Below, piece after piece: positions 59,796 to 64,000 of a DNA stretch of 64,000 bases. Below the pieces are notes generated by a model, which had not been told where the DNA came from, ran no database searches, and was given only the letters and a program-made list of their open reading frames with translations. Location of the stretch: contig NZ_SBEF01000015.1 in NCBI RefSeq assembly GCF_004011885.1, positions 1 to 64,000 on the forward strand, read 5' to 3'. The position numbers were made by a program, and so were the translations under genes. Every line of letters begins with the position of its first letter. The stretch's first letter is position 1. The DNA is from Serratia microhaemolytica. Its GTDB lineage: Bacteria > Pseudomonadota > Gammaproteobacteria > Enterobacterales > Enterobacteriaceae.

Positions 59796-60743
59796 ATGCG
59801 GCTGTTTTTGGCCCCGATGGATGGTGTGCTCGATGCATTAATGCGTGAGCTACTGACCGCAGTCAACGATTATGATCTCTGCATCACCGAGTTTCTGCGT
59901 GTGGTTGATCAACGGCTACCCGCTAAATCGTTCTATCGCATCTGCCCTGAACTGCACCACAACGGGCTAACCGCTTCAGGAACGCCAGTACGGATACAAC
60001 TGCTTGGGCAGCATCCAGAATGGTTGGCAGAAAATGCGGCTTTAGCGGTTGAATTAGGCTCTCATGGTGTCGATCTGAATTGTGGTTGTCCATCCAAGCA
60101 GGTCAATGGCAGTGGCGGAGGTGCCAGCCTGCTAAAAGATCCCGATTTAATTTACCGTGCGGCAAAAGCAATGCGTGCCGCAGTGCCAACTTCACTCCCC
60201 GTATCGGTCAAAGTTCGCTTAGGCTGGGATTGCAACCGCCACAGTATGGAAATTGCCGATGCCGTACAGCAAGCAGGAGCGAGCGAGATCACGGTGCATG
60301 GTCGAACAAAACTGGATGGCTACCGTGCCGACCGGATCAATTGGCCGGCGATCGGCTACATCCGCCAACAGCTCACCATTCCGGTGATAGCAAATGGCGA
60401 GATTTGGCATCACCAAAGCGCACAAGCCTGCTTACAAGTGACCGGCTGTGATGCGCTAATGCTCGGACGTGGTGCACTGAACCTGCCCAATCTGAGCAGA
60501 GTGATCAGAGAGAACCAGTCCGCTATGCCGTGGCCACAAGTGCTGCAACTACTGCAACAGTATCTACAACTGGAGAAACCCAAAGACAACGGTATGTACC
60601 ACCTTGCCCGTATCAAGCAGTGGCTGGGATATTTGCGCCAGCAGTACCCAGCAGCCGATATGTTATTTAGTCAGATCCGCGCACTGAAACAGCTAACAGA
60701 GATCGCTGTAGTGATTGAGCAAACACTCGCAAGCGTTGATTAG
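59796..60743 (+). CDS. dusC: tRNA-dihydrouridine(16) synthase DusC
   Basis: The 315-residue flavoprotein has the Dus motifs [35 protein letters not shown] with the catalytic cysteine, VSVKVRLGW, and [10 protein letters not shown]. It reduces U16 of tRNA with FMN. It is convergent with the DUF1460 gene and the two stops overlap by 4 bp. Confidence 0.95.
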
Positions 60744-61477
60744 CGCGGTCGTAACACCACTATGCCCGGTGTTTTCTCTAGATAGCGGATAAAATCTGCA
60801 TTCACAACTTGCCGACTCTCTGCTGGTTGCTCAGTTTGGCGAGACGAGGCGTGGCGTAGCAGTGTGCCCTGTTCAGACACAATAAAAAATCCGGTATGCG
60901 TCACATCTAAGCCAGCGAGTGGCGTGTAAATACCAATATAATCACCGTTGTTAAGCTGATTGATCACCTGTTGATCAATCCACTCGCTCGGTAGATAAGT
61001 CACCGGCCGTTCAACCACCGCCACTCCAGGCAAGTAAAGCGTACCATCCGCTTTTTGGTTGAGTTGCTTTAGCACCGTGACACTGTGCTGACTGAGCGAT
61101 GCCGTCACATCATCAGCAATCACCCGTTCACAGTATGCCCAATCGCTGAAAAAGTGGCGACGATGGGCAAAGGTAATATTGCCATTCCGATAACGGGTTT
61201 GAACTAAATTCTCCAGCAAGCTAGCTTCACTGCTCGCATGTCGCAACGCCTCTACGTACTCTAAGTAGGTCAAACAATCCAGTTGGCATAAGTCAATCAC
61301 CAATTGTTCAGCCATGCTCGCTGAGCCGATCAAACGATTTGCCAAATAGGGCGTGGCAAGAAAAAACCGTGACAACTGCTCAATCACCTGCCCCTTTTCC
61401 GCATCCGCAAGCGTGCGACGCAGTGCCAATAATGCTGACAACCTTTGGCCACTGGCGCTATCGATGATACCGTTCAT
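60740..61477 (-). CDS. DUF1460 family N-acetylmuramoyl-L-alanine amidase-like protein
   Basis: The 245-residue protein matches DUF1460, a branch of the NlpC/P60 cysteine peptidase superfamily. Cys68 in [17 protein letters not shown] is the likely nucleophile and the histidine in DVTHTGFFI the base. No signal peptide is obvious from this start, unusual for a murein-acting enzyme. ATG 61477 has GAGGTGG 5 nt upstream. It sits next to a lipoprotein operon on the opposite strand. Confidence 0.78.
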
Positions 61478-61800
61478 AACCGCCACCTCTTTTTAACCAT
61501 AATCATTTGATTTGAATTAAAACAGGGCCAAATCACCAGACAGTTTAACACTATCATCAATGATTGTTGCCCATGCATACTGCTACTGGTAGCCAACGTC
61601 AGCATTCGACTTTTTAACGCCAGGCCACAACTGACCCGGTAAAATCTATCGACATTGGAAACGAGTTCCTCTAATTTACTCACTGCTTTTGTTAGCATGA
61701 ACCAACTGTTTTTTTCAAAAAAATAACAAATCCCACCGTAGAATAGTGGGCTGGTTTTTTTGTTCATCTTTTAAATCATTTAATTATAGAGGGATTGATT
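61478..61800. other. gap between the DUF1460 and CsgG-like genes
   Basis: These 323 bp must hold both divergent promoters. A minus-strand frame of 97 codons (61474-61767) overlaps the DUF1460 start by ATGA but resembles no family I know. A hairpin with a T run lies at 61732-61761. Confidence 0.45.
61732..61761 (+). terminator. terminator-like hairpin in the leader of the lipoprotein operon
   Basis: CCCAC (61732-61736) and GTGGG (61746-61750) form a 5-bp GC stem, followed by CTGG and seven T (61755-61761). It is 40 bp upstream of the CsgG-like gene, and no plus-strand gene ends nearby, so it may attenuate the operon or end a small RNA. Confidence 0.4.
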
Positions 61801-62475
61801 TTGTCTAAGAAACCATTACTCATCTGTTTTTTCCTGCTCTCCAGCAGCCTGTTAGCAGGCTGTGCCAGTGAGTCATCACGCTCAATGGAAGTAGCAAAAG
61901 TCGCTTCCTATAACACCCCCTACCAAGGAGCACGCACACCCATCGCAGTCGGCAATTTTGACAACCGTTCCAATTACATGAACGGTATCTTTTCCGATGG
62001 TGTTGATCGCCTTGGCAATCAGTCTAAAACGATCCTGATCACTCATTTGCAACAAACCGGACGTTTTAATGTGCTGGATCGCGCCAATATGGCTGCACTG
62101 CAAGCTGAAGCTGCACTTTCCGGTCAACGGCAGGCTGTACAAGGCGCACGTTATGTGATCACCGGTGATGTCACCGAGTTTGGACGTAAAGAAGTGGGTG
62201 ACCACCAGCTATTTGGCATTTTAGGACGTGGCAAAACCCAGGTTGCCTACGCCAAAGTTAACTTAAACGTAGTGAATGTACAAACTTCCGAAGTCGTATT
62301 CTCCAGCCAAGGTGCCGGTGAGTACTCGCTTTCCAACCGTGAAGTGATCGGTTTTGGTGGCACCGCTAGCTACGATTCAACATTAAACGGTAAAGTACTT
62401 GATTTGGCTGTCCGTGAAGCAGTCAATAATTTGATCAGCGGAATTGATCGTGGCGCATGGCGTCCAGCAAACTAG
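61801..62475 (+). CDS. CsgG/HfaB-family lipoprotein
   Basis: The 224-residue protein has a lipoprotein signal with lipobox LAGC (Cys21) and a CsgG-like domain: IAVGNFDNRSNYMNG, GRFNVLDRANM, ARYVITGDVTEFG, and VREAVNNLISGI at the C terminus. CsgG itself is the outer-membrane curli secretion pore, but this branch lacks curli genes nearby and may act as an assembly or regulatory lipoprotein. TTG 61801 is chosen since AGAGGGA lies 6 nt upstream. First of three lipoprotein genes. Confidence 0.82.
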   Translation: MSKKPLLICFFLLSSSLLAGCASESSRSMEVAKVASYNTPYQGARTPIAVGNFDNRSNYMNGIFSDGVDRLGNQSKTILITHLQQTGRFNVLDRANMAALQAEAALSGQRQAVQGARYVITGDVTEFGRKEVGDHQLFGILGRGKTQVAYAKVNLNVVNVQTSEVVFSSQGAGEYSLSNREVIGFGGTASYDSTLNGKVLDLAVREAVNNLISGIDRGAWRPAN

Positions 62476-62498
62476 GGAAGGAAAGCGGAGCATATATT

Positions 62499-62858
62499 GT
62501 GATAACTAAAAAAATCAGTGCAGTGCTGATATTAGCTGTCTGTTTGGTCGGTTGTAGCCGTTCACCACAGCCACTCTATTACTGGGGCGATTATCAGAAA
62601 ACAATATACCAGTATTATCAGACTGAGAGTGATAGCACAGGTCAGCAGATTGCCAGCCTGCAAGCGATGATTGAGCGTTCTCGCGCCAGCAATAAAGCGC
62701 TACCGCCTGGCGTTCATGCACACCTCGGTATGCTATACGCTAAAACAGGAAGAGCTGAACAGGCCGTCGCTGAATTCAATATGGAAAAGTTACTGTTCCC
62801 AGAATCTGCGCCATTTATGAACTTTTTAATTAGCAAAGATAAAGGGAGCAGAAAATGA
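62499..62858 (+). CDS. DUF4810 lipoprotein
   Basis: The 119-residue protein has a lipobox LVGC (Cys19) followed by PLYYWGDYQKTIYQYY, the DUF4810 hallmark, and a TPR-like C-terminal part (HLGMLYAKTGRAEQAVAEFN). GTG 62499 has GGAG 9 nt upstream. It starts 23 bp after the CsgG-like gene and overlaps the next gene by 4 bp. Function is unknown; partners are the two flanking lipoproteins. Confidence 0.8.
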   Translation: MITKKISAVLILAVCLVGCSRSPQPLYYWGDYQKTIYQYYQTESDSTGQQIASLQAMIERSRASNKALPPGVHAHLGMLYAKTGRAEQAVAEFNMEKLLFPESAPFMNFLISKDKGSRK

Positions 62859-63508
62859 AACATAGATTCGGAGCACTCGTTGCAGTCGCACTGATGCTAT
62901 TGAGCGGTTGTGCCAAGAAAGCGCCTTATGACTATAGTGCGTTTCATGAAAGCAAACCGCGTTCCATTTTGGTGTTGCCTCCAGTTAGCCAGTCACTTGA
63001 TATTAAAGCCAGTCACAGTGTGTTGGCCAGCACCAGCCAACCATTGGCTGAAGCCGGCTACTATGTGCTGCCAGTGGCAGTAGTGGAAGAAACTTTCATG
63101 CAAAATGGGCTGACCACCGCAGGTGACATTCACGCCGTAAGCATCGAGAAGCTACATCAAATCTTTGCTGCTGATGCGGTGCTGTATCTTGATGTCGTCA
63201 AATATGGTACTAACTACATTCTGTTAGCCAGTGAAACACGGGTAACGATTAACGCACGACTGGTTGATCTGCGTAGTGGTAAACTGCTCTGGAGCGGAAG
63301 TGGTAGCGCATCCAACAACGAAGGTGGCAACAGCAATAATGGTCTGTTAACCCAGTTGATCGTCGCAGCGGTACGGCAGGTTGTTGATACTATTAACGAC
63401 AAAGGATTTGAGATCGGTGCGGTCGCCAACAATCGGCTACTATCGGCTGGTCGAGAAGGGGGTATTCTCTACGGCCCACGCTCACCAAAATATACCCAAC
63501 AATATTAA
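62855..63508 (+). CDS. DUF799 (GNA1162-family) lipoprotein
   Basis: The 217-residue protein has lipobox LSGC (Cys19), then ILVLPPVSQS, YYVLPVAVVEETF, ADAVLYLDVVKYG and a C-terminal QVVDTINDKG. These fit DUF799/GNA1162, named after a Neisseria surface lipoprotein whose fold resembles periplasmic parts of transport machines. The ATGA overlap with the DUF4810 gene shows tight coupling. Likely lipidated and acting with the other two at the outer membrane. Confidence 0.82.
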   Translation: MKHRFGALVAVALMLLSGCAKKAPYDYSAFHESKPRSILVLPPVSQSLDIKASHSVLASTSQPLAEAGYYVLPVAVVEETFMQNGLTTAGDIHAVSIEKLHQIFAADAVLYLDVVKYGTNYILLASETRVTINARLVDLRSGKLLWSGSGSASNNEGGNSNNGLLTQLIVAAVRQVVDTINDKGFEIGAVANNRLLSAGREGGILYGPRSPKYTQQY

Positions 63509-63513
63509 ATCGT

Positions 63514-63541
63514 TTTGCGGCAGCCAGTCGGCTGTCGCAAA
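63514..63541 (+). terminator. terminator of the three-lipoprotein operon
   Basis: TTTGCGGCAGCC (63514-63525) and GGCTGTCGCAAA (63530-63541) form a 12-bp stem with one G-T pair and loop AGTC, 5 bp after the stop. The following tail CTAATCTGAATTT is only moderately T-rich. Confidence 0.6.
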
Positions 63542-63620: not shown

Positions 63621-64000
63621 ATGAAAATTCCAAAGAGACTGCAACCATTGGTTGACGATGGGCTGATTGATGATGTCATTCGGCGTTTAAAGAGCGGCAA
63701 GGAGGCGGACGTATTCATTGTGCGATGTGGTGATGAAATCCGCTGTGCTAAGGTGTACAAAGAGGCGGAAAAACGCAACTTCAAACAGGCGGTACACTAC
63801 CAAGAGGGGCGCAAAGTACGCAATAGCCGTGATGCGCGCGCAATGCATAAAGGATCCAAATTTGGTCGTCAACAGCAGGAAGAGGCTTGGCAGAATACCG
63901 AAGTAGACGCACTCTATCTGCTGGCTAAAGCCGGAGTTCGTGTTCCACAACCAGATATCTGTTTGGATGGCGTGTTATTGATGGAACTGATCACCGATGC
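63621..64000 (+). CDS. RIO1-family serine/threonine protein kinase (partial, 3' end outside window)
   Basis: The frame from ATG 63621 is open for 126 codons to the right edge. It begins MKIPKRLQPLVDDGLIDDV, has the RIO nucleotide loop SGKEADVF, the ATP lysine in CAKVYK and the hinge VLLMELITD. RIO kinases occur in some enterobacteria and pseudomonads, but their bacterial substrates are unknown. SD AAGG is 4 nt upstream. Confidence 0.82.
   Translation, partial: MKIPKRLQPLVDDGLIDDVIRRLKSGKEADVFIVRCGDEIRCAKVYKEAEKRNFKQAVHYQEGRKVRNSRDARAMHKGSKFGRQQQEEAWQNTEVDALYLLAKAGVRVPQPDICLDGVLLMELITD

Follow-up and report, generated by a model that had tools for sequence, protein, structure and literature searches.

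A conserved, co-inherited operon of three lipoprotein genes, one of them CsgG-like, in Serratia microhaemolytica

Three short lipoprotein genes lie near the end of the stretch of DNA analysed here, positions 1 to 64,000 of contig NZ_SBEF01000015.1 of Serratia microhaemolytica (64,000 nucleotides; hereafter the window). They encode, in order, a CsgG-like protein, a DUF4810 protein and a GNA1162-like (formerly DUF799) protein, and they are a real, conserved and co-inherited operon. As to what this trio does, we give an even chance to the reading that it makes a self-contained, curli-independent outer-membrane lipoprotein complex, composed of a CsgG-like ring and its accessories.

The trio and its conservation

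The three genes are co-directional on the plus strand (61801-63508) and each carries a lipobox. The CsgG-like gene (61801..62475; lipobox LAGC, mature protein of 204 amino acids (aa), Pfam CsgG E 1.9e-27) has no ATG; its start is likely the TTG at 61801, favoured over the alternative TTG at 61795 because it stands 7 nt 3' of AGAGGG. After a gap of about 23 nt comes the DUF4810 gene (62499..62858; lipobox LVGC, predicted TPR-like helices, Pfam DUF4810 E 6.2e-33), for which GTG 62499 is the most likely start, in preference to ATG 62457, and which overlaps the GNA1162-like gene (62855..63508; lipobox LSGC, Pfam PF05643 E 2.2e-80, PDB 4hrv E 4.3e-53) at the sequence ATGA. The original prediction, made from the letters of the window, had described three short, tightly coupled lipobox genes with an ATGA junction; coordinates, lipoboxes and Pfam matches confirm it.

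Conservation was assessed in a phylum survey of 299 genomes, accompanied by 14 control genomes. DUF4810 was found in 25 genomes of the survey, GNA1162 in 38 (25 strong matches and 13 weak) and CsgG in 84. All 25 DUF4810 genomes have a CsgG match directly upstream, and 24 have a GNA1162 match directly downstream; in the exception, G077, DUF4810 ends 262 bp from the contig end. The sole genome with a strong GNA1162 match and no DUF4810, G089, has its GNA1162 starting 286 bp into the contig, and in G076 a contig end falls inside GNA1162. The hypergeometric probability that two sets of 25 drawn from 299 share 24 members is 4e-33, a figure that treats the genomes as independent although they are not. 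DUF4810 is absent from each of the 13 genomes whose GNA1162 matches are weak only. Among the controls all three families occur only in Bacteroides ihuae (1/14), counted from genome-level matches, adjacency apart.

A second set, from named genomes, comprised the best 80 of 569 confirmed relatives, near relatives being over-represented in it. The order CsgG-DUF4810-GNA1162 is the same in all 80 loci, and the exact 4-base start-stop overlap between DUF4810 and GNA1162 is present in 62. Hosts among these loci include Serratia, Pectobacterium, Yersinia, Photorhabdus, Xenorhabdus, Providencia, Pseudomonas and Aeromonas, and further Thauera, Dechloromonas, Cupriavidus and Dickeya. The predicted recurrence of the set in proteobacteria is thus now counted, and the scattered distribution of the three genes that had been named as speaking against a common system was not found: the full trio in 24 of 25 DUF4810 genomes, and the constant order in 80 of 80 loci, are those of genes inherited together. 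Distribution between genomes is patchy: the phylum sample has 12 members of the family to which the window's genome belongs, and among them GNA1162 is present in the own genome and G222 and absent from 10. Pairwise distances are correlated among the three trio proteins (r 0.76, 0.56 and 0.58, against permutation maxima of 0.21-0.25; n=41), a result that shared ancestry alone would also produce.

Some further occurrences of GNA1162-like sequences were noted. In a plasmid collection, matches were seen in 11 of 72,556 records, some of them chromosome-sized; records of 134-373 kb from Comamonas, Polaromonas and Novosphingobium suggest that a plasmid location of the gene is possible, and in the Polaromonas record it lies next to an annotated DUF4810 gene. 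A search of 20,395 E. coli records in 'distant' mode returned no DNA match to the GNA1162-like gene. In three of the 13 weakly matching genomes (loci L026, L028 and L029) a GNA1162-like domain stands near the N-terminus of frames of 642-678 aa, with a weak beta-helix match below cut-off towards the C-terminus, and at L026 a FecR-domain gene adjoins this frame.

With a stricter first rule, lipoboxes were called in 174 of the 240 trio proteins in the 80 loci. Anchoring the rule on mature length raised the number to 239, and the remaining protein, the DUF4810 protein of L064, whose frame runs on, was called under a wider limit. Residue +2 is never Asp among the 239 scored lipoproteins. Since Asp+2 is the inner-membrane signal of lipoprotein sorting, its absence points to the outer membrane as the probable destination of the trio proteins. 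Meningococcal homologues of the trio are listed as outer-membrane-vesicle proteins in excerpts of PMC10097807, PMC6338130 and PMC6497663, and a DUF799 protein also appears in an A. baumannii vesicle list excerpted from PMC10016710.

The CsgG-like protein and its partners

The CsgG-like protein matches the Pfam CsgG profile (PF03783) with 96.4 bits, the cut-off being 20.8, over profile positions 6-208 of 210. Aligned by hhalign with 12 curli-type CsgG proteins, it scored 95-97% probability; the first run covered 198 of the 204 columns, and coverage varied between 93 and 198 with the stringency setting. Mature length is 204-209 in all 80 loci. An AlphaFold2 model of the protein superimposed on CsgG structures by VIA-align with Z 13.7-15.2 and up to 189 of 204 residues aligned, the membrane-bound form 4uv3_C giving Z 14.5 and a root-mean-square deviation (rmsd) of 3.3 over 187 residues. 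Profile matches and model together show a predicted CsgG fold that spans nearly the full mature length.

Independence from curli was part of the original claim, and for CsgG, curlin and CsgF it held in the genome of the window: the trio gene is its sole CsgG match, and neither the curlin repeat (PF07012) nor CsgF (PF10614) gave a match in this assembly, which is 99.94% complete, the E. coli control being positive. The survey adds less. Curli-type CsgG, defined by a cut-off of our own (E below 1e-50), occurs in 23 of the 299 genomes and in none of the 16 survey genomes that have the three-gene form; an absence of this kind would arise by chance alone about 27% of the time, so that 0/16 shows independence only weakly.

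The distal parts of hairpin regions 1 and 2 are among the best conserved parts of the protein (majority residue 0.90 and 0.91; C-terminal helix, 0.90; 41 sequences), and the hydrophobic face of region 1 is comparable to that of curli-type CsgG (1.44 vs 1.27). For the channel of CsgG we worked with transmembrane residue numbers, and with constriction residues Tyr51, Asn55 and Phe56, that we take to be correctly numbered. With hhalign, Tyr51 falls on Tyr39 of the window protein, a position aromatic in all 81 sequences (Tyr in 60, Phe in 21), Phe56 falls on Phe44 (Phe in 81/81) and Asn55 on Ile43; in the 12 curli-type proteins Phe56 itself is kept in 11, Tyr51 in 2 and Asn55 in 5. The aromatic positions Tyr39 and Phe44, as aligned, fit a kept constriction, and because the profile alignment keeps them we moved our estimate that the predicted CsgG-like protein forms a true transmembrane pore slightly upward, to just short of an even chance. 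Loss of the constriction, which had been proposed on one MAFFT alignment, is contradicted by the profile alignment and was withdrawn.

Several observations nevertheless weigh against a pore or against the complex as a whole. The model is of moderate confidence (mean predicted local distance difference test score, pLDDT, 73.4), and residues 39-49, the constriction loop, and 164-171, in hairpin 2, fall below 50. In the MAFFT alignment CsgG positions 51, 55 and 56 fall, unlike with hhalign, on Ile or Val, a gap, and Gly or Asp (20/20), and at its strictest setting hhalign leaves the constriction loop unaligned. Hairpin region 2 has 28 residues, vs 35 in curli-type CsgG in the columns compared, and a less pronounced best hydrophobic face (1.47 vs 2.13). 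PelC, LptE, PqiC and TraT appear in the same structural list as CsgG, and because other lipoproteins of the CsgG superfamily share this list the fold in itself proves no pore. In an excerpt of PMC6338130 the CsgG-like protein of the meningococcus is assigned to the periplasm and its GNA1162 protein to the outer membrane. Across the 80 loci there is no conserved neighbour at a fixed place that would name a substrate, and 8-mer counts upstream of CsgG do not rise above those of shuffled sequences, giving no shared promoter motif.

Alternatively, the CsgG-like protein could form a PelC-like ring or scaffold that faces the periplasm and does not span the membrane. CsgG-like and GNA1162 rings would then guide or stabilise a different exporter or envelope machine, to which DUF4810 would contribute the TPR part. 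PelC is the next structural family after CsgG (Z 11.2; PelC and PelBC together, Z 10.3-11.2), the abstract of the PelBC study describes twelve PelC lipoproteins arranged in a periplasmic ring that is essential, and hairpin region 2 is short. We nonetheless think this arrangement unlikely: CsgG structures, membrane-bound ones included, give a better match that extends over almost the entire protein, conservation of both hairpin regions is strong, and no exporter gene is conserved beside the trio. Genes for polysaccharide synthesis or export do not recur beside it in the 80 loci, single loci not having been searched for pel genes.

The second protein matches DUF4810 (PF16068) with 113.6 bits over the full profile (1-85 of 85), and its model consists of five helices (pLDDT 82.7). 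Foldseek returned mostly TPR proteins as top matches, the best a designed TPR protein at a weak E of 0.033, and the top structural Z, 10.2, is short of the roughly 13 used as a guide where repeats are helical, and lies in the range reachable by chance. DUF4810 is likely a small TPR-like helical protein; the earlier description of it as TPR-like survives in its predicted helices and in the kind of proteins matched, but the matches themselves are weak.

The third protein matches PF05643 with 269 bits, again over the full profile (1-185 of 185), and the crystal structure of GNA1162 from N. meningitidis is PDB 4hrv. When the CsgG-like model was compared by Foldseek with 4hrv the match had E 1.7e-7, with TM-scores of 0.33 and 0.45 and rmsd 10.5, and profile alignment of GNA1162 with CsgG gave no sequence link (about 0.1% probability). 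By the structural comparison, CsgG-like and GNA1162 proteins may share a fold superfamily. An excerpt of PMC6497663 likens the structure of GNA1162 to those of TolB and LptE and has little detail on its function.

That the three proteins form a heteromeric complex, as predicted, we consider probable. In the outer-membrane complex that we favour, the CsgG-like subunit would oligomerise into a ring anchored in the outer membrane and, less certainly, its two conserved hairpins would insert to make a CsgG-type pore. GNA1162 would stack on the ring or gate it from the periplasm, and the DUF4810 lipoprotein would recruit substrate or bridge ring and GNA1162, the whole working without curlin or CsgF. 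The original suggestion of an outer-membrane complex remains plausible, given co-inheritance, lipoboxes without Asp+2, a TPR-like DUF4810 and a fold match to 4hrv, albeit at low TM-score; the wall-linked role attached to it did not stand.

Surroundings of the trio and its four-gene form

Genes around the trio were compared in the same 80 loci, which carry about 40 genus labels. Open reading frames were chosen greedily by length and grouped by single linkage, so that some groups are mixtures; for the same reason the trio members themselves span only 37, 34 and 33 labels. The widest other families reach 16, 9, 8, 7 and 7 labels. The first of these consists of frames that lie on the minus strand across the trio genes and are taken for shadow frames. 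Each of the others was identified from one representative: in turn a LysR regulator, a GGDEF/EAL protein, an ABC ATPase and an Fe-S oxidoreductase, members of large families that stand in varying places. Neighbours vary by genus, with local synteny only in five Pectobacterium-like genera, and because the neighbouring genes change between genera we regard the trio as a self-contained cassette. A simple pattern for a sigma-E-like site found none in 40 regions upstream of CsgG.

At the window's own locus a sigma-70 scan listed no site 5' of the trio. A small hairpin at 61732-61750, between the CsgG-like gene and the divergent peptidase gene described below, is followed within a few bases by a plus-strand T run (seen by eye) and is a possible leader attenuator or terminator. 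Past the operon, at 63514..63541 on the plus strand, lies a 12-bp hairpin of -20.7 kcal/mol (z -4.7), equalled by none of 200 shuffles. The good hairpin said to end the operon is therefore real, but the terminator scan did not list it and no T run follows it, and because the T run is absent a role as terminator is unproven. Just over 110 bp 3' of the trio begins a gene for a PA4780-type RIO1-like kinase (63621-64000 in the window); in Serratia a gene of the RIO1-like kinase cluster is also found downstream of the trio, which hints at partly shared synteny.

In nine of the 25 DUF4810 genomes of the survey the CsgG frame is longer, 316-345 aa in eight of them. The ninth, L049 (genome G267), has a frame of 272 aa whose C-terminal part continues in another frame, a frameshift or a sequencing error. 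Between the CsgG and DUF4810 matches of this form lie 668-835 bp (8 measured), and at all nine loci (L046, L047 and L049-L055) the gap is filled by an extra frame with a lipobox-like site, recognised by eye. The extra frame is 106-131 aa long in eight; that of L054 measures 178 aa, or about 114 aa if read from an inner ATG. Six of these extra lipoproteins were scanned and had no Pfam match over cut-off, and one CsgG protein of the four-gene form, scanned likewise, had a match to FlgT_C below threshold (E 0.037). Curli-type CsgG co-occurs in two of the nine genomes. The literature searched contained no name for this form.

Upstream of the trio, divergent from it and convergent with a dihydrouridine synthase gene, is a gene for an AmiA-like (DUF1460) peptidase homologue (60740..61486, minus strand; Pfam PF07313 E 5.3e-72), which likely starts at ATG 61477 and which we judge not to belong to the system. 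The original prediction saw in it a likely murein peptidase that fitted a wall-linked role for the trio, a link that does not recur. The neighbourhood statistics for DUF1460 suggested at the time find the family in 6 of the 299 survey genomes and beside the trio only in the window's own; in G237 both are present, on different contigs. Among 246 family genomes 43 have a peptidase match, and at none of 30 loci examined is a trio gene within 1.5 kb, just as none of the 80 trio loci contains the peptidase. Read from ATG 61477 the protein has no recognisable N-terminal signal, whereas by a rule of our own 23 of 30 homologues have a lipobox, 6 a hydrophobic start and 1 neither; the hydrophobic-start count is loose, the pre-domain region of the window peptidase also reaching its threshold of 7. 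Conserved Cys68 and His194 are kept. The peptidase may be cytoplasmic or decaying, and its position next to the trio looks like that of a chance neighbour; as a part of the trio system it was rejected on the 0/80 and 0/30 counts and the missing secretion signal.

Published context and known systems

The original prediction took the trio for an undescribed system, which overstated its novelty: the genes are already on record for Neisseria and Pasteurellaceae, and the structure of GNA1162 is solved, so that only the function appears undescribed. The meningococcal operon NMB1162-NMB1163-NMB1164 (second copy NMB1124-1126; NEIS1063/1065/1066) shares with the trio its GNA1162 protein, which is that of 4hrv and matches the window protein at E 4.3e-53; this operon and APL_0220-0222 of A. 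pleuropneumoniae differ from the trio in host organism, and the comparison is by annotation. Judged in this way, the middle gene in Neisseria and Actinobacillus is probably DUF4810, APL_0220 probably CsgG-like and APL_0222 probably GNA1162-like.

Several published lists contain these genes together. One places NMAA_0892-0894 next to one another: a gene for a DUF799 lipoprotein, one without a name and one for CsgG. Other papers on meningococcus list a CsgG family protein, a hypothetical protein and a putative lipoprotein together. Excerpts report that csgG (APL_0220) and APL_0221 of A. pleuropneumoniae are constitutively highly expressed in pig lung (PMC3328466), that NMB1162 and NMB1164 homologues are up-regulated in biofilm in H. 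parasuis and A. pleuropneumoniae (PMC4245831), and that trio proteins are vaccine-vesicle antigens in meningococci (PMC10097807, PMC6497663). Papers on A. pleuropneumoniae and N. meningitidis call the CsgG-like gene a curli component in the portions available, a label that contrasts with the window's own genome, where the gene is present and curlin and CsgF are absent. In the open-licence PubMed Central literature, as far as its excerpts go, we found no functional study of the trio.

Another reading is a set of surface lipoproteins for adhesion or host contact, with no part in transport and with a resemblance to CsgG that is one of fold only. GNA1162 is reported to be surface-exposed by fluorescence-activated cell sorting, as cited in an excerpt of PMC6497663; in an enzyme-linked immunosorbent assay, recombinant NMB1126 bound to proteins from brain endothelial cells (excerpt of PMC6168680), and there is the high expression of A. 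pleuropneumoniae csgG in lung. A host-specific adhesin role is not general, though, because Dechloromonas, Thauera, Dickeya and Photorhabdus, genera from the environment or associated with plants or insects, also have the cassette, and we consider this explanation improbable. Least credible is a second LpoB-type activator of peptidoglycan synthase, in which the CsgG-like protein would contact a penicillin-binding protein, with the other two as modulators, for although Pfam LpoB (PF13036) weakly matches the CsgG-like protein (23 bits, cut-off 22.3; E 3.8e-4), it does so over residues 83-173 only, where CsgG covers 44-224, a far better LpoB (E 1.1e-29) is encoded by another gene on another contig, and the adjoining peptidase is unlinked to the trio.

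If the pore complex is true, many beta- and gammaproteobacterial genomes, those of meningococci included, carry an uncharacterised outer-membrane machine, for which the three-gene unit and its four-gene variant provide a concrete parts list. In its widest form, that of a widespread curli-independent secretion or permeation machine of CsgG type, with GNA1162 as periplasmic gate, DUF4810 as TPR adaptor and three- and four-gene architectures, we hold the idea to be doubtful.

Three known systems serve for comparison. With LpoB the trio shares the weak Pfam overlap of its CsgG-like protein, but its genome carries its own LpoB elsewhere. It resembles PelC and PelBC in combining a predicted CsgG-superfamily lipoprotein with TPR elements, which in the Pel complex are part of PelB; in the trio, by contrast, DUF4810 is a lipoprotein in its own right, about 100 residues long. 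The curli channel CsgG is like the trio protein in its fold over nearly the full mature length, in being a lipoprotein, in both hairpin regions and in the profile-aligned aromatics of the constriction. It differs in that the trio protein has a shorter hairpin region 2, lacks a C-terminal extension (the two align only up to position 241 of 262), belongs to a genome without curlin repeat or CsgF, and is encoded in an operon with two lipoprotein partners, DUF4810 and GNA1162.

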